NCBI GenBank assembly: GCA_016183805.1
Contig: JACPDX010000038.1
Coordinates: forward strand, 1-33,683
DNA length: 33,683 nucleotides
From: Bacteroidota bacterium
GTDB lineage: Bacteria > Bacteroidota > Bacteroidia > Flavobacteriales_E > Vicingaceae
Direction of reading: 5' to 3'
The notes under the pieces were generated by a model. That model was not told the DNA's origin and made no database searches. It saw only the letters and a list, made by a program, of their open reading frames with translations. Shown piece by piece: positions 2-12,960 of this stretch. The position numbers were made by a program, and so were the translations under genes. Positions within the stretch are counted from its first letter, which is position 1. Every line of letters starts with the position of its first letter.

Positions 2-943
2 TGGGTTACTCGTACACCTGAAACCGATTATGTAGGAGGAGATTATGGGTTTCGATCTATTGATTTCTCGAATAAAGCTAACGGAATTGCTGTAGGAGAA
101 CGTGGCTCAATATTCAAATATTATGAAAACCATTGTTCAGTAACTAATTATTCAAACTATACATATGTAGATAATAGTAATGGTAACGTTTCATTTACCA
201 ACACTTCAACAGGTAGCTTTAATCAATTAAATTGGGCTTTCGGTGATGGAAACACATCATCATTAACCAGTCCAAACCATAACTTTAGTGCTAATGGAAC
301 TTATGTGGTTGTTTTAACCATTAATGATTCTGTAACTTCTTGTTTAGATTACTACACTGACACAATTACAGTAACAGGAGTTATATCCCCCACTCAATGT
401 ACGGCAGGTTTTGTAATATATCCAGACACAACCACTGGAGATATTATAGTTATTAATAGTTCAACTGGTTCTAACTTAACTTACTTATGGGATTTTGGCG
501 ATGGAAATACTTCAAGTCAGGCATACCCAAGTTATACATATACATCTACTGGTAATTTTTATCTTTGCTTAACAATAGATGATGGTGCTGGCTGCATAGA
601 TATGTACTGTGATTCTATTGGAGAAAATGGTGTGGTATTTAACAAACAAATAGGATTTACGATAAATGTAATTGCTACTCCTGTTATTACAGGTATAGAA
701 GAGAATAACCTAGAATCGAGTCTAGAAATAGAAATTTATCCTAACCCAACTTTATCTCAATTAACAATTGATACAGAGCTAGATATTAGTGAAATAATCA
801 TTGTTGACATAACTGGTAAAACCATTAAGACAATTAAACAAAATACAAACTCTGTAAATGTTGCTAATTTATCGAACGGTATTTACTTTATTAAAGTAAT
901 TACTGATGAAAAAACAATAACTAAAAAGTTTGTAAAACAATAA
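2..943 (+). CDS. T9SS-secreted PKD-domain protein, 5' partial
   Basis: The frame is open from base 2, so the N-terminus lies outside the window. About 313 residues are visible. The first 40 or so contain a segment resembling one unit of a Ycf48/BNR-type beta-propeller (SIDFSNKANGIAVGERGSIF). Two PKD domains follow, each with the WxFGDGNTSS core (near bases 236 and 488). The last 75 residues form a type A T9SS C-terminal sorting domain that starts with EIYPNP and ends in ITKKFVKQ. Family knowledge: such proteins cross the inner membrane by Sec, then leave through the type IX system, and the sorting domain is cleaved. The substrate or adhesion target cannot be told. A shorter reading from the GTG at 305 would cut the first PKD domain and is not the real start. 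A strong terminator follows at 1018. Confidence 0.88.
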   Translation, partial: WVTRTPETDYVGGDYGFRSIDFSNKANGIAVGERGSIFKYYENHCSVTNYSNYTYVDNSNGNVSFTNTSTGSFNQLNWAFGDGNTSSLTSPNHNFSANGTYVVVLTINDSVTSCLDYYTDTITVTGVISPTQCTAGFVIYPDTTTGDIIVINSSTGSNLTYLWDFGDGNTSSQAYPSYTYTSTGNFYLCLTIDDGAGCIDMYCDSIGENGVVFNKQIGFTINVIATPVITGIEENNLESSLEIEIYPNPTLSQLTIDTELDISEIIIVDITGKTIKTIKQNTNSVNVANLSNGIYFIKVITDEKTITKKFVKQ

Positions 944-1017
944 AAAACGATTTGCCAACAAAACCTAAACTGCATTAAAATATAATTTGGCTTAACGTTA
1001 AAAAACTAAGGCGTAAT

Positions 1018-1043
1018 AAAGCACTCGAAAGGGTGCTTTTTTT
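1018..1043 (+). terminator. Rho-independent terminator
   Basis: A 9-bp stem (1018-1026 with 1031-1039, one G-U pair) is closed by a GAAA tetraloop and runs into seven T residues at 1037-1043. It ends the transcript of the secreted PKD protein. Confidence 0.85.
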
Positions 1044-1133
1044 GTTCTTTAAATTATTAACGTAAGCCTTAAAGATTTATTCCAAATACAAAATTTGCCA
1101 AGAGATAAAAAACACCACTTACAATTATAACTC

Positions 1134-2561
1134 CTAATAAATTATACAAAATTCTCCTGCCCGTACCATTTCTTTTATCGGCACCCTACCCGATCCAAAA
1201 ATAATGGCTTGAGTGGGCGAAGCTACAGGCATCATAAAGGCACAGCTGGCAGATAACGTTGCGGGAATCATTAATATACGGGGGTCAACACCCAGAACTA
1301 TGCTGGCTTTGGCTAAAATAGGTAATACCAAGTTGGTAGTAGCTGTGTTTGATGTAAATTCAGTTAACATAGTTAGCACTAAACAAACAATTAGAATTAA
1401 AAATAGTGGAGAATCTACCGAAACATTATTAAAAGCATTTCCAATAACGGTAGATAAACCTGAATTTTCGAAGCCACCTGCTAAAGCAAAACCGCCACCG
1501 AAAAGCAACAAAATCCCCCAAGGTAATATTTTTACATTATCCCATTTCAGCATCATTTCATTTTTACGCTCTTTTGAAGGGATTATGAATAATAATACCG
1601 CAGTTCCAATCGCCACAGCAGAATCGTTAACCATGGGCAAGTTAAAAATGGTTCGCCAACCTCTAATGGTAAAATTTTCTGAAAGAGTTAAATCTGAACC
1701 AGTTAACCAAAGTAATACAGCAATTCCAAAAACAATCCCTGCCACCCATTCATCTTGCTTAACTTTTCCCAATTGTTTTAGTTCTTCTTTAATTACTCCT
1801 TTGTTTTCAAAGAGTTTGAATTTTGGTAATCTAAAAATTACTCTTGTCATCAATAGCCAACCAGTAAAAATAAATACAATGGAAATAGGTAATCCCATTA
1901 ACATCCATTCGGTAAAACCAACAGGTGGTAAATCAGGGAATAAACTTCGGTACATTTCAACAAAAACCATGTTGGGTGGCGTTCCAACCAAAGTTGCCAT
2001 ACCGCCAATATCGGCAGAATAGGCTATTCCCAATAACAAGCTTAACCCCAATTTTTTTATTAATTTTTGGTCAGCAATTTTTTCGGCAGTTTTATCAATA
2101 ATAGAAATGGCTATGGGCATCATTACCATTACCGATGCCGTATTAGAAATCCACATGCTTAAAAATGCGGTAGCTATCATAAAACCCAATACCATGTTAA
2201 TAGGGTTTGTTCCTATTACTCTAACGGTATTTAAGGCCAATCGTTTATGTAAGTTCGAAACCTGTAAGGCTTGTGCAAGAATTAATCCTCCTAAAAACAG
2301 AAAAATAATATCTTTACCGTAAAATAGTGCTGTTTCTTTTGAATCTATAATTTCAAAAACAGGAAAAAGCACTAATGGTAGCAATGAAGTAATTGGAATA
2401 GGAACAACTTCAAACACCCAAAACATTGCCATAATTACAACAATAGCTGCCATAATTGGAGCTTTTGGATTATCGTTAGGTACCCAATAATACACAACAA
2501 CAGCAAGTAAAATAGAAAGAATTCCTATAATGGCTTTTTTACTATGTTGGTGTTTCAACAT
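1134..2561 (-). CDS. SLC13/DASS family anion (dicarboxylate) transporter, 3' frameshifted
   Basis: Predicted inner-membrane sodium-coupled carboxylate or sulfate transporter of the DASS/SLC13 family. It has many hydrophobic segments and the two family signatures SNT (residues 139-141, WISNTAS; and 404-406, TSNTATTNLVLP), which bind sodium and substrate in known members. The frame read here stops after MVRAGEFCIIY. Family members carry one more membrane helix after the conserved VRAG. That helix is present in another frame: after the GCAGGAGAATTTTG stretch near 1150-1160 the DNA reads YNLLGVIIVSGVFYLLA and reaches a stop at 1069-1071. A 2-nt duplication of GA (or a 1-nt loss) would explain it. 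The protein is therefore either truncated by one helix, a recent pseudogene, or affected by a sequencing error. It lies 4 nt after cdaA and is probably co-transcribed. Substrate unknown. Confidence 0.87.
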   Translation of the reverse strand: MLKHQHSKKAIIGILSILLAVVVYYWVPNDNPKAPIMAAIVVIMAMFWVFEVVPIPITSLLPLVLFPVFEIIDSKETALFYGKDIIFLFLGGLILAQALQVSNLHKRLALNTVRVIGTNPINMVLGFMIATAFLSMWISNTASVMVMMPIAISIIDKTAEKIADQKLIKKLGLSLLLGIAYSADIGGMATLVGTPPNMVFVEMYRSLFPDLPPVGFTEWMLMGLPISIVFIFTGWLLMTRVIFRLPKFKLFENKGVIKEELKQLGKVKQDEWVAGIVFGIAVLLWLTGSDLTLSENFTIRGWRTIFNLPMVNDSAVAIGTAVLLFIIPSKERKNEMMLKWDNVKILPWGILLLFGGGFALAGGFENSGLSTVIGNAFNNVSVDSPLFLILIVCLVLTMLTEFTSNTATTNLVLPILAKASIVLGVDPRILMIPATLSASCAFMMPVASPTQAIIFGSGRVPIKEMVRAGEFCIIY

Positions 2562-2565
2562 CTAT

Positions 2566-3360
2566 CTAAGATAGTTCTTTAGAAATTTGACGATCTAGTT
2601 CTTCTAAAGTTAAATTGTATAATATTTCTCCTTTTTTACTCAACGAAATTTTACCTGTTTCTTCAGAAATAATAATTGCAATGGCTTGAGTTGATTCTGT
2701 TATACCTGCTGCAGCTCGATGTCGCAATCCAAAATGTGAAGGAAAATCTAAATTATCGGATACCGGCAAAATACAACGTGCCGCTTTTATTAAATTATCC
2801 TGAATAATTACTCCTCCATCGTGTAAAGGGCTGTTTTTAAAAAAGATATTTTGTAATAAGGACGAAGATATTTTTGCATTTATTTTTTCACCGGAATCTA
2901 TAAACAGTTTAAGTTCAGCGTTAAAATCAATAATAATTAATGCTCCTGTTTTTGTTTTTGCAAGCATTTTACAGGCATCAATTATTGGAGGTAATTTTAA
3001 CTTTTCCTGTTCATTAACCGAAGATTGAAGCATTTTAAAAAAACTACCACTTTTTGAGGAGAAAAATCGATTATTACCAATTAATAACAAAAATCTACGA
3101 ATTTCTTGTTGGAAAACAATAATTAATGCCAACATTCCAAGTCCTATAAAATTTCCTAAAATTTCACTTAACAAGTGCATTTTAAAAATTTCGGCAAACT
3201 TCCAAAACAAATAAATGGCTAAAACACCTAAAAATATTTTTATTGCAACGGTTCCTTTTACCAATTGATATAATTGATATAAAATGATGGATACCACTAA
3301 AATATCAACTACATCGAGCCAACGAATAGAAATAAATAACAAAGTGGTGTAGTTTATCAT
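2566..3360 (-). CDS. cdaA: CdaA-type diadenylate cyclase (c-di-AMP synthase)
   Basis: Makes cyclic di-AMP from two ATP at the inner membrane. Three hydrophobic segments (about residues 8-90) precede a DAC (DisA_N) domain (about 115-250). Catalytic motifs are LHDGG at 179-183 and RHR at 213-215, then ISEETG at 231-236. The first motif is DGG where the family consensus is DGA; the Asp and Gly are kept. The length (264 aa) is normal for CdaA. It is the upstream gene of a two-gene minus-strand unit with the SLC13 transporter. Family knowledge: c-di-AMP controls potassium and osmolyte transport, so pairing with a transporter is suggestive, but no direct link can be read from the sequence. A TATATTTG motif sits only 4 bp before the ATG (3365-3372), too close for a usual leader. 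The promoter may lie further upstream. Confidence 0.92.
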   Translation of the reverse strand: MINYTTLLFISIRWLDVVDILVVSIILYQLYQLVKGTVAIKIFLGVLAIYLFWKFAEIFKMHLLSEILGNFIGLGMLALIIVFQQEIRRFLLLIGNNRFFSSKSGSFFKMLQSSVNEQEKLKLPPIIDACKMLAKTKTGALIIIDFNAELKLFIDSGEKINAKISSSLLQNIFFKNSPLHDGGVIIQDNLIKAARCILPVSDNLDFPSHFGLRHRAAAGITESTQAIAIIISEETGKISLSKKGEILYNLTLEELDRQISKELS

Positions 3361-3535: not shown

Positions 3536-5077
3536 ATGCGAAATATACTTTTTTTTGTTTCTTTCCTTTTCATAAATAGTGTTGTTGCTCAAGAAATAAC
3601 AAGTAAAATTGCCAGCGAAAACTTTAATCAAGGCGATTTTAACACGGCATTAAAAAACTACCTTGAACTGGTAAAACAAGAACCTGAAAATTCAAAATAC
3701 AATTACAGAATTGGTGTTTGTTACTTAAATACCAACATTGATAAAGCAAAAGCCGTTAGTTACCTCGAGAAAGTACTTCAATTACCGGAGCCGGATCCAA
3801 ACACCTATTATTTATTGGGACGTGCATATCATTTTGCCTACCGCTTTAGTGATGCCGTAAAAATGTACGAACAATTTAAAGCGAACAATAAAGGAACTCT
3901 CGAAAATGTTATTGATGTTGAAAAACAAATTGAATATTGTTACAATGCCATTGAGTTAATGAAATTTCCTTTAGATGTTACTTTTAAAAATTTAGGCGTA
4001 AACGTTAATTCAAGATATAAAGATTATTATCCCTTTGTTGCTAAGGATGAAAGTTTTTTAATATTCAATTCTAAACGAGAAGATGGTAGTGTAAAACAAA
4101 TTGATGGTACGTATACTTCTGAAGTTTATTTTTCGAAAACAAAAAATGGAGAATTAGGAAAAGCCCGAAAACTAGACCAAAATATAAACACCCTAACCGG
4201 AAATGAAGAAATTGTTGGAATGTCGCATGATGGTGATTTTTTAATTTTTTATTTTGAAAACGAGAAGAATTTTGGCGATTTATTTATTGCTGAATTTGAA
4301 AACGAAGACATCAAAAACTTACAAAAGCTACCAAAAACAATCAACTCAAAAAACCATGAAATTGCTGCTTCAATTACTAAAAATGGCGACGCTGTTTATT
4401 TTGCAAGCGACAGAGAAGGTGGTATGGGTGGTGTTGATTTGTACATGTCGCTTAAATTACCTAACGGAGAATGGGCTCCTGCTCAAAATTTAGGACCATC
4501 CATCAATACTCCTTTTGATGAAGATTTTCCAAACATCACTGCTGATGGTAAATCGTTGTATTTCAGTTCTAAAGGACATACCAGTATGGGGGGCTATGAT
4601 GTTTTTAAAGCAAGTTGGGATCAGGTAAAACGCATTTGGTCAGATGTGAAAAATGTTGGATTCCCAATAAATACACCTGAAGACAACACTAATTTTAGAG
4701 AATCGGAAAGTGGACGAACAGGTTATGTTTCAGCATTAAGAGCAGAGGGTATGGGCGATTTTGATATTTATGCCATTACTTTTAACGAAGTTGAACCGGA
4801 ATATACTGTAATTAAAGGATTTGTATCTACTCAAGATACAGCTAATATTATTAAAGATGTATTTATTTCTGTACTGGATTTACAAACCGACGAACTTTAT
4901 GGAACTTATCTAACCAATCCTATTACAGGTCGTTACATCATTATTTTACCTCAAGGAAAATTCAATATGTTAGTGGAAGTTCCTGGTTTTAAGCCACAAA
5001 GCGAAGATATTGAAGTGCTTGGTAAAAGCGACTACAGAAGTTTAATAAAAAAAGACATTGTCTTAAAACAAAATTAA
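3536..5077 (+). CDS. PorE-like TPR / PD40 beta-propeller periplasmic protein without OmpA domain
   Basis: 513 residues from the ATG at 3536. That start is preferred over a TTG-type start at 3497 because it begins directly with the signal peptide (residues 1-19, cut after VVAQ) and follows a -7 element. TPR helices occupy about 20-145. A WD40-like PD40 propeller runs about 160-390, with repeated DG..LYFSSKG or DAVYFASDREGGMGG strands. A carboxypeptidase-regulatory-like beta domain covers about 415-510. This order matches PorE-type proteins of the type IX secretion and gliding machinery, but the C-terminal OmpA peptidoglycan-binding domain of PorE is missing and the gene ends cleanly with a stop. 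It is probably a periplasmic or outer-membrane-associated relative. A role in T9SS is inference only. Its 3' end overlaps the convergent gene by 4 nt. Confidence 0.82.
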   Translation: MRNILFFVSFLFINSVVAQEITSKIASENFNQGDFNTALKNYLELVKQEPENSKYNYRIGVCYLNTNIDKAKAVSYLEKVLQLPEPDPNTYYLLGRAYHFAYRFSDAVKMYEQFKANNKGTLENVIDVEKQIEYCYNAIELMKFPLDVTFKNLGVNVNSRYKDYYPFVAKDESFLIFNSKREDGSVKQIDGTYTSEVYFSKTKNGELGKARKLDQNINTLTGNEEIVGMSHDGDFLIFYFENEKNFGDLFIAEFENEDIKNLQKLPKTINSKNHEIAASITKNGDAVYFASDREGGMGGVDLYMSLKLPNGEWAPAQNLGPSINTPFDEDFPNITADGKSLYFSSKGHTSMGGYDVFKASWDQVKRIWSDVKNVGFPINTPEDNTNFRESESGRTGYVSALRAEGMGDFDIYAITFNEVEPEYTVIKGFVSTQDTANIIKDVFISVLDLQTDELYGTYLTNPITGRYIIILPQGKFNMLVEVPGFKPQSEDIEVLGKSDYRSLIKKDIVLKQN

Positions 5078-6399
5078 TTTTCCTGTAAAATAATTTGTTG
5101 CTCCACACCTAATCCATACTTTAAATGCTGATTCAAAAAATTTGTAGAATCGGCTGTAATTTCTGCACTATTCAAATATCCTGCATTGTTTAGTTTTTTT
5201 AATCGGATAGGTTCATTTTTGTTGTTAGATAAGATAACGATAGTTCTTTCATCAACAGATTGGCTATAATTTTTATGAATTCGATAAAATACTCCATTAA
5301 AAACCAGCATTAACACTACAACAATTAACAAAGCCGGTTTAAAATTTATTTTTATCTCTTTTGAATGAATCCCATACAAAAACATAAATCGAACTATTGC
5401 TAAAGAACTAAACAAAGAAGAAGTAATGGTTGACCTATCCGGAGCCAATCCACCAAGTGCGTAGATAACAATAAACTGATTGATAAATACGACCAAAAAC
5501 ACAAAAATTAAAGTTTTGAAAAGATCCTTTTTAATATTAAAATTTTTATAAAGTTGAACGCTTGATTTTGTTCCTAGAATAAAAAATGGAAATCCGAAAA
5601 TAATAGCAGGTAAAATGGTTTTATAAAAATCGATGAAAACATATTTTACTGTTCCATAGCCAACATATAAAACCAACTCAACAAAAGGCAAATTAGGTGT
5701 AAGGTTATCTCTAAAAGTTGTGCCTACACTAAAATAATTTACACTAATAGAACCCAACATAACTATTGAAGTTATTGCTTTAAGAACTGTATTTCCTTTA
5801 AAAAAGAAGGAGACAAAAAGTATCAATATAGTAAGCAAAGCCAATACCTCATTTGAACCACCAATGTACAAACAGCAAACTATAATTACCAAATAATCGA
5901 AAAAACGATGTGTTTGCTTTAACCAGCTACTCAACCCAAACAGAAAGAAAATACAGCTCCACAAATAAGCTAAAGAAGCTGAAATCCAAAACCATGATTG
6001 TCCTGTAAAATGTGTAAAAAAGAAAAATACCCCGATAAAAACAATGGCATATAAAAGGACTGTTTTAATGTTAAAGTTTGTTTCATATTTTTTATTTAAA
6101 GCAGCTAAAACCAAATAAATACTGTAAAATAACAGCAAAAAACTCAATCCATTAAAAGCAAATAAAAAGTATTTATACTCGCTAAATTTCATAAAAAATA
6201 GAATGGCAAAATTATACGTCCACCGCCCATTCCATGTTAAATAAAGTTTTTCATAAAACTCAAAAAATGAAAAATCTCTTAATCTACCTATAAAAAGATA
6301 ATCATCAGCCGAAAACCGATTAAACCAAGCTGTTATAAATAAGAACACCACCAATAAAATACCTTGAACAAAAATTAGATGTGATGTTTTGATTTTCAT
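5074..6399 (-). CDS. Multi-pass membrane protein, DUF6056/GT-C-like
   Basis: 441 residues with about ten to twelve hydrophobic segments. After the first segment comes FSADDYLFIGRLRDF, and at about residue 57 WNGRW. Around residue 180 there is GGSNEVLAL. An acidic DD motif in the first external loop, then W(N/T)GR and a GxxNE motif, are typical of DUF6056-type proteins. Those resemble GT-C lipid-linked sugar transferases in layout. The enzymatic activity and substrate are not known, and I assign the family from motif memory only. The C-terminal 70 residues form a small soluble tail. It is transcribed alone on the minus strand and overlaps the convergent TPR/PD40 gene at a shared TTAA (5074-5077), with no terminator between them. 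Confidence 0.7.
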   Translation of the reverse strand: MKIKTSHLIFVQGILLVVFLFITAWFNRFSADDYLFIGRLRDFSFFEFYEKLYLTWNGRWTYNFAILFFMKFSEYKYFLFAFNGLSFLLLFYSIYLVLAALNKKYETNFNIKTVLLYAIVFIGVFFFFTHFTGQSWFWISASLAYLWSCIFFLFGLSSWLKQTHRFFDYLVIIVCCLYIGGSNEVLALLTILILFVSFFFKGNTVLKAITSIVMLGSISVNYFSVGTTFRDNLTPNLPFVELVLYVGYGTVKYVFIDFYKTILPAIIFGFPFFILGTKSSVQLYKNFNIKKDLFKTLIFVFLVVFINQFIVIYALGGLAPDRSTITSSLFSSLAIVRFMFLYGIHSKEIKINFKPALLIVVVLMLVFNGVFYRIHKNYSQSVDERTIVILSNNKNEPIRLKKLNNAGYLNSAEITADSTNFLNQHLKYGLGVEQQIILQEN

Positions 6400-10614: not shown

Positions 10615-12960
10615 ATGAAATTGAATAAAATTCTTTTAGTAATTCTACTTATCGTAATTACTTCCAATATATTCGCTCAAGGAACTGTTCGTGGTTTTGT
10701 ATATGATGAGAAAACAGGTGAACCCATGATTTTTACCAATGTTTATTTTAAAGGTACTACCATGGGTTCGGCAACCGATGTAAACGGATTTTATTCCATT
10801 ACCAAAATTCCGGCAGGAAGTTATACGTTAATGGTTTCTTCCTTGGGTTTTGATACGGCACAGGTAGCCATTACCATTAAAGGGAATGAAATCATCAATC
10901 AAAAATTATTTATTAAAGAAGCCATGATTCAAATGGCAACTTTTAATATCTCTGCTGAAAAAGCAGAATCAAAAACCGAAGTAAAAATGTCTGTTTCTAA
11001 AGTTACTCCAAAAGAAATTCAATCCATGCCATCCATTGGTGGAGACCCTGATTTAGCTCAGTATTTACAAGTTTTACCGGGTGTAACTTTTACCGGAGAC
11101 CAAGGTGGTCAGCTTTACATTAGAGGAGGTTCGCCCGTTCAAAACAAGGTACTTTTAGATGGAATGATTATTTATAATCCCTTCCACTCTATCGGTTTAT
11201 TTTCAGTTTTTGATACCGATTTAATGCGTAATGCCGATGTTTATACCGGTGGTTTTAGTGCTCAATATGGTGGCAGGGTTTCGTCAATTATGGACATTAC
11301 CACACGTGATGGTAATAAAAAACGATTAAGCGGAAAACTTTCTGCCAGTTCGTTTGGTGGAAAAATTTTATTGGAAGGACCCATGAAAAAAGCAAAAGAA
11401 GTTGGCGGGGGAAGTAGTTCTTTTGTGATTTCGGCAAAACATTCCTATCTAGAACAGTCATCTAAAATTTATAAATCATATTTTAAAGAATTAAAATCTG
11501 AAAATGCCAGAGGAATTGATACCACCGGACTTCCTTATGGTTTTACCGATATCTATGGTAAAGTTTCATTTAATGGCGAAAACGGAAGTAAATTCAATTT
11601 ATTTGGGTTCAACTTTCTGGATCGTGTTAATTTCTCTGATGCCTCAAAAATTGCTTGGGACTCTTACGGTGGTGGAGCCAATTTTGTGTTAATTCCCGGT
11701 TCATCTAAAACTTTAATTGAAGGCGTTTTTGCTTATTCGAAATATAAAATAGATATGCTTGAAGCTGATGGAAAACCAAGAACCAGTAATGTTGGAGGTT
11801 TTAACGGAGGTATGACTTTTACTACATTTTCCGGCGACAATGAATTCAAATATGGTTTTGATGTGTTAGGCTTAAGCACCAATTACGAATTTACCAATTC
11901 GGTAGATTTAATTATTCAACAACAACAAAGCACTACCGAACTTGGAGGTTTTCTATTATTTAGATGGAACATTAAAAAATTGGTGTTAGAACCAAGCGTT
12001 AGAGTTCAATATTATGCTTCATTATCAGAAATTTCTCCTGAACCGCGTTTGGGCATAAAATACAACATTACCGATTGGTGGAGAGTAAAGGTAGCAGGAG
12101 GTTTATATTCTCAAAACTTAATCAGTGCTAATTCTGATAGAGACATTGTAAATTTATTTTATGGTTTTATTTCCGGTCCTGATAATTTACAAAAAGAATT
12201 TACCGACCTAGACGGAAACGTTCAAGAAATTACTTCAAAACTTCAAAAAGCCAGACACGCCATTTTTGGTTTCGAATTTGACTTAAATCGTTCAATATCT
12301 GTAAATACCGAAGGTTATTACAAAGGATTTACTCAATTAACCAATACGAATAGAAACAAAATTTACCCCGACAACAACGAATTTACTAACGAACCGGATG
12401 TGCTTAAAAAAGATTACATTATTGAAACAGGAGACGCATACGGAGTTGATTTTAGTTTAAAATATACTTCCACCCACTTAAATGTTTGGGCCATTTATTC
12501 GTTGAGCAAAGTGAACCGTTGGGATGGTATTATTGAATACAACCCTGTGTTTGACAGAAGACACAATGTAAACTTGGTAACAGCTTACACTTTTGGCAAA
12601 AACCTAAACTGGGAATTTAATGCACGTTGGAACTTCGGTTCAGGTTTCCCATTTACGCAAACACAAGGATTTTATGAGGGGTTAAGCTTTAGTTCAATCG
12701 ACCAAAACCCTACAACGGCTAATGGAACTTTAGAAATTGCTTATGCCGAATTTAATAAAGGGCGATTACCTTATTACCATCGTTTAGATTTAACCTTAAA
12801 AAGAACGTTTGTATTGGGTAAAAACACCGAGCTAGAATTGAGTGCAAGTGTTACCAACGCTTACAACAGAGAAAATATTTTCTACTTAAACAGAGTTACC
12901 GGTGATAAAGTTTACCAATTGCCATTGCTTCCCAGCTTTGGTATGAGTTTTACTTTTTAA
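10615..12960 (+). CDS. TonB-dependent outer-membrane receptor with carboxypeptidase-regulatory N-terminal domain
   Basis: 781 residues from the ATG at 10615, which starts the signal peptide (MKLNKILLVILLIVITSNIF, cut after AQ). An upstream in-frame ATG at 10579 only adds 12 polar residues. A CarboxypepD_reg-like domain follows (about 22-105, GTVRGFVYDEKTGEPMIFTN). Next comes a plug domain (about 125-235) with GGDPDLAQYLQVLPGV, GGQLYIRGGSPVQNKVLLDG and GFSAQYGGRVSSIMDI. A 22-strand beta-barrel follows and ends in an aromatic residue (GMSFTF). It imports a substrate across the outer membrane using TonB energy. There is no SusD partner beside it, so a single-component receptor is likely. The substrate is not readable; siderophores, vitamins and peptides are all possible. 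Transcribed alone. Confidence 0.92.
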   Translation: MKLNKILLVILLIVITSNIFAQGTVRGFVYDEKTGEPMIFTNVYFKGTTMGSATDVNGFYSITKIPAGSYTLMVSSLGFDTAQVAITIKGNEIINQKLFIKEAMIQMATFNISAEKAESKTEVKMSVSKVTPKEIQSMPSIGGDPDLAQYLQVLPGVTFTGDQGGQLYIRGGSPVQNKVLLDGMIIYNPFHSIGLFSVFDTDLMRNADVYTGGFSAQYGGRVSSIMDITTRDGNKKRLSGKLSASSFGGKILLEGPMKKAKEVGGGSSSFVISAKHSYLEQSSKIYKSYFKELKSENARGIDTTGLPYGFTDIYGKVSFNGENGSKFNLFGFNFLDRVNFSDASKIAWDSYGGGANFVLIPGSSKTLIEGVFAYSKYKIDMLEADGKPRTSNVGGFNGGMTFTTFSGDNEFKYGFDVLGLSTNYEFTNSVDLIIQQQQSTTELGGFLLFRWNIKKLVLEPSVRVQYYASLSEISPEPRLGIKYNITDWWRVKVAGGLYSQNLISANSDRDIVNLFYGFISGPDNLQKEFTDLDGNVQEITSKLQKARHAIFGFEFDLNRSISVNTEGYYKGFTQLTNTNRNKIYPDNNEFTNEPDVLKKDYIIETGDAYGVDFSLKYTSTHLNVWAIYSLSKVNRWDGIIEYNPVFDRRHNVNLVTAYTFGKNLNWEFNARWNFGSGFPFTQTQGFYEGLSFSSIDQNPTTANGTLEIAYAEFNKGRLPYYHRLDLTLKRTFVLGKNTELELSASVTNAYNRENIFYLNRVTGDKVYQLPLLPSFGMSFTF

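Follow-up and report, generated by a model that had tools for sequence, protein, structure and literature searches.

A frame break at the edge of a contig-shared repeat sets apart the last helix of a DASS transporter in a draft Bacteroidota genome

Introduction

When the reading frame of a transporter gene closes just ahead of its last membrane helix, and that helix is still legible in another frame, the question is whether the gene was broken in the cell, broken in the assembly, or is read across both frames. Such a gene occurs in the window analyzed here, the whole of a 33,683-nt stretch from a Bacteroidota bacterium (GenBank assembly GCA_016183805.1, contig JACPDX010000038.1).

Results

The broken gene is a DASS transporter

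1134 to 2561, minus strand: SLC13/DASS transporter ORF as assembled, 475 residues, ending EFCIIY-stop (PF00939, TIGR00785)
1154 to 1155, minus strand: frame break, two bases over 12 aligned relatives around this point (alignment)
1069 to 1152, minus strand: out-of-frame last helix, assigned to TM11 by family alignment; 27 residues plus TAA (translation, alignment)

As a sodium/anion symporter of the DASS (SLC13-like) type the window gene is ordinary, and the copies in its relatives are complete. Its translation scores above the curated cut-off of the DASS profile TIGR00785 (268.9 bits against 198.6), matches PF00939 at 218.8 against a cut-off of 27 (E 2e-64), and contains both SNT motifs (SNTAS and SNTAT). 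An alignment of 19 sequences shows no variation in the first SNT or in the S and N of the second, whose T is kept in at least 90%. An excerpt of PMC7553777 describes these two motifs as the substrate and sodium sites of DASS/SLC13 transporters. In family scores and in both motifs the window transporter resembles members such as VcINDY (PDB 4f35), with window residues 9–472 matching chain residues 8–432. Unlike VcINDY, the ORF as assembled is without the last helix (TM11 in VcINDY numbering) in frame. DASS/SLC13 transporters have eleven transmembrane helices, of which TM11 is the last (excerpt of PMC5413979); here TM11, placed by family alignment, lies out of frame and is intact in another frame. 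Its absence from the transporter frame is read as a break in a DASS member and not as non-membership, and the remainder of the ORF is intact, without decay.

The minus-strand codons GTA CGG GCA GGA (1166–1155) are followed by GAA TTT TGT ATA ATT TAT and the stop TAG (1136–1134), such that the transporter frame reads VRAG-EFCIIY-stop, with six residues after VRAG. The other frame holds the expected last helix, ILYNLLGVIIVSGVFYLLANFVFGINL, open from 1152 to 1072, beginning with ATT (1152–1150) and running for 27 codons to TAA (1071–1069), and the helix end that the first-pass annotation placed at 1069 is the last base of this stop. The string AGGAGAATTTTG, in which that annotation located an extra GA, corresponds to 1158–1147, and a tandem GA duplication is one reading of the two surplus bases.

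The helix beyond the break is undecayed

All 477,266 stop-free 27-mers in the six frames of 905 kb of the window's own genome (G000) were scored without gaps, by BLOSUM62, against the tail of the G001 relative. The window helix scored 84, as did an exact duplicate on contig C27, while the next best 27-mer scored 42; because of this gap, the helix is more than a chance open frame. Its residues are identical to those of G001 at 17 of 27 positions and to those of G002 at 19 of 27, in agreement with the earlier claim that the helix had not decayed. Compared with each of 11 other relatives, the window tail also matches at more residues than the tail of G001 does in 10 cases, with L017 as the exception. 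When the helix frame is set against each of 12 relatives, third codon positions hold most of the differences, as compared with first or second positions singly.

Homologues carry the helix in a single frame

The homologue search covered 60 genomes, namely the window's own and 59 relatives, and 53 of them (own included) gave matches, many only distant. A second search, in a collection of named genomes, kept 80 of at least 576 matching loci. Altogether 113 loci were compared, some being one record fetched twice (e.g., L005 and L034). The end of the query was matched by 110, and 107 of those have a closed C-terminus, comprising the window and 106 others. Outside the 106 lie L002–L004, which are distant paralogues in G000 with no usable match, and three open-ended loci.

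Past VRAG, the frame runs on for 15–45 residues in 106 of the 106 other closed-end loci among the 113 compared, versus six in the window. The first-pass annotation had called for such an alignment, and among these loci there are neither FCIIY-like ends nor C-termini lacking the helix, of which each keeps at least 15 residues. The two extra bases at the break are found only in the window among 12 aligned close relatives. The homologue tails and the alignment with these relatives bear out both the frameshift proposed ahead of the last SLC13 helix and the two-base (GA) excess. The shortest of these 106 tails belongs to the DASS homologue L026 (G027), where an in-frame stop falls 15 residues after VRAG; the tail is 33 residues in three same-genus relatives.

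Programmed recoding by −1 or +2 frameshifting would join the two frames in the living cell, and both the intact helix in the other frame and the brief overlap of the frames speak for it. Against it, a single frame serves in all 106 other closed-end loci among the 113 compared, and a two-frame arrangement was found in none of them. The nine heptamers read in the zero frame between the VRAG codons and the stop all lack the slippery form XXXYYYZ, and the break coincides with a repeat edge, described below. A literature search, which says little, returned no report linking programmed ribosomal frameshifting with a dicarboxylate transporter. With relatives that need no recoding and no XXXYYYZ heptamer near the break, recoding is unsupported, and we regard it as highly improbable.

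The gene could also be split, with the last helix translated separately from TTG (1149–1147) to complete the truncated transporter in trans. The extra bases do put AGGAGA (1158–1153) ahead of this helix-frame TTG, which overlaps the end of the first ORF. However, Shine-Dalgarno-like 4-mers are not enriched in G000 (9 of 299 long ORFs, taking the first ATG as the start, versus 16 of 299 in an upstream control window), so the AGGAGA carries little weight, and the gene is unsplit at all 106 other closed loci. Reinitiation at TTG 1149 is unsupported, and a split gene of this kind appears very unlikely.

The break lies where a repeat with a copy on contig C27 begins

1015 to 1154, minus strand: 140-nt block with an exact copy at G000:C27:12729–12868 (144 nt with one mismatch from 1158) (sequence match)
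1018 to 1043, no strand assigned: terminator-like hairpin between convergent genes, within the repeat (sequence)

The repeated 140 nt hold the last helix and the terminator, and the copy on C27 lies outside any transporter gene. When repeats of at least 60 nt were sought, this block was the longest exact repeat in the 905 kb of G000 scanned. The fold of 1010–1075 on the minus strand reaches −11.1 kcal/mol, a weak signal (z −1.75, with 11 of 200 shuffles as good). A whole-genome search, in which 40 of 76 first-look candidates were scored, found two full copies only, and a third G000 match, on C5, is merely a similar terminator. On this count of two among 40 of 76 candidates scored, a spreading repeat family was rejected. 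In 45 other family genomes, with at most 18 candidates scored in each, the block matched only the ends of the transporters in G035 and G032 and, weakly over 37 nt, G035:C217.

Frame breaks occur at joins in draft assemblies, and a faulty join at the edge of the 140-nt repeat would give the broken frame seen here. In favor of such a join, the exact block begins at 1154, which is the position of the frame break, and it is the longest exact repeat of its kind in the scanned sequence; the undecayed helix and the intact remainder of the ORF fit as well. As at join breaks in draft assemblies, the window gene is intact but for one break, and that break lies at the margin of a contig-shared repeat. 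On the other side, the block carries a true DASS helix and is therefore at home in the transporter, with nothing foreign joined to it, and it was only post hoc that the break was linked to the repeat edge. A real rearrangement that left a scar would, moreover, look identical.

The C27 copy is out of place

On C27 the copy of the block has a dispersed hairpin element on one side and, on the other, a gene in which the block takes the place of the last codons, an arrangement that also argues for a faulty join. The hairpin element, GTCCTTAGTC...GACTAAGGAC, lies at 12672–12722 of L224 (G000:C27) and at eight further places in G000. All nine matches have at most two mismatches and five are exact, versus none for a reversed control. 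By eye, seven of the eight other matches are hairpin-like copies that closely precede a short G run, so the C27 junction may rest on few shared bases. The element, for which 'REP-like' is our own label, is also present in G001.

The gene cut by the block is small, with a signal-like N-terminus, and its relatives in four of four genomes end in EQIK plus four or five residues. Over 12063–13302 of L224, this small secreted-type gene converges with another that we take to be SET-type; in G001 the two lie 35 kb apart on the same strand. Contig C27 has further oddities that count toward an assembly fault. It contains N runs at 4866–4892 and 6027–6063, which may or may not be assembly gaps, and near 11030 of L224 a 35-nt gap relative to G001 splits an rlmL-like methyltransferase gene. 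We give almost no credence to a genuinely split transporter built from a copied helix-plus-terminator segment, in which the body without its last helix would be joined by a separately initiated or recoded TM11 micro-protein and the same segment would also stand elsewhere beside the REP-like element.

The downstream neighbor differs from that of relatives

2566 to 3360, minus strand: cdaA diadenylate cyclase, the upstream gene (TIGR00159, 208.5 bits against a cut-off of 188.8)
2 to 943, plus strand: 3' part of a gene for a surface-type protein, convergent with the transporter (ORF translation)

Upstream of the transporter, cdaA is found in G001 and G002 as in the window, and no other compared locus, within short flanks, shows it. 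The surface-type gene on the other side, whose product presumably has PKD-like repeats and a sorting-type C-terminus, is an unrelated gene and not the downstream neighbor found in relatives. In 6 of 109 loci, the transporter is followed by a gene that we take to encode a DUF3127 protein; most of the 109 have short flanks, and two of the six (L005 and L034) are one record. In G000 this gene is on another contig, C78, which again favors a misjoined assembly.

Frame breaks are rare in the genome

Indel noise was gauged with 211 ortholog-like pairs, in which ORFs of G001 were set against the DNA of G000 and pairs below 50% identity or 70% coverage were dropped. Coverage was roughly 26% for G000, or 905 kb of its 3.47 Mb, and 48% for G001, and the sample did not catch the rlmL-like break on C27. 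In G000 two rows showed a frame change, each from the same repetitive gene on C4. There were also two early ends, one being that of the window and the other, on C57 (L114), a divergent tail as judged by eye. In the reverse control (G000 ORFs against G001 DNA), 9 frame-change rows and 3 early ends appeared in 217 pairs, so G001 is noisier than G000. The C4 frame change lies near 17635 of L121, about 1.2 kb from the contig end, and some 1.15 kb separate the break in the window from the start of C57. Four short contigs of G000 (C6, C13, C20 and C38; L123, L130, L217 and L235) read wholly as N.

With so few other breaks, the G000 assembly is not generally indel-rich, and general indel noise is unsupported as the cause, one other gene only having a frame change in the 211 pairs. 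G000 is mostly clean, with faults at some places. This rarity, with one other broken gene in the comparison and one more outside it on C27, weighs against an assembly join, and the low background sets the window apart from the usual join breaks of draft assemblies. It is also an argument for a real recent lesion, i.e., a two-base insertion or recombination scar in the DNA of the cell, fixed or a strain variant, that removed TM11 and left a truncated, probably non-functional transporter. The tandem GA reading of the extra bases is compatible with such an insertion, and the undecayed helix fits a recent event. Late truncations may also occur elsewhere, given that the G027 homologue stops 15 residues after VRAG and its three same-genus relatives after 33. 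On the other hand, a random mutation would not be expected exactly at the edge of a 140-nt repeat, and the remaining gene is undecayed even though the missing TM11 belongs to the DASS transport domain, as stated in an excerpt of PMC7553777. From that placement of TM11, its loss, if the lesion is real, would probably inactivate the transporter. We consider a real lesion a serious contender, at somewhat under an even chance.

Discussion

What the sequences show is the break, the repeat, the coincidence of the two, a downstream neighbor that differs and homologues that are unbroken. Because the repeat edge lies at the break, the C27 copy is out of place and the DUF3127 gene is on another contig, the break is probably a junction scar, left by a faulty assembly join or, with almost equal likelihood, by real recombination or a recent mutation. 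Our first choice is the assembly join error, in place of a lesion in the cell, and we hold this choice to be evenly balanced between right and wrong. If the join is at fault, the cell's own transporter gene is probably intact. The first-pass annotation had proposed a recent event, an error or a recoded site; the first two both stand, with evidence for a structural cause added, and the third finds no support.

The locus carries a caution, in that what looks like recoding in a draft assembly reads differently once the break proves to coincide with the edge of a contig-shared repeat. If the lesion is real, C27 would represent a rearrangement filled in with a segment copied from another place, and the window would hold the fresh loss of a transporter helix, of modest interest for genome evolution.
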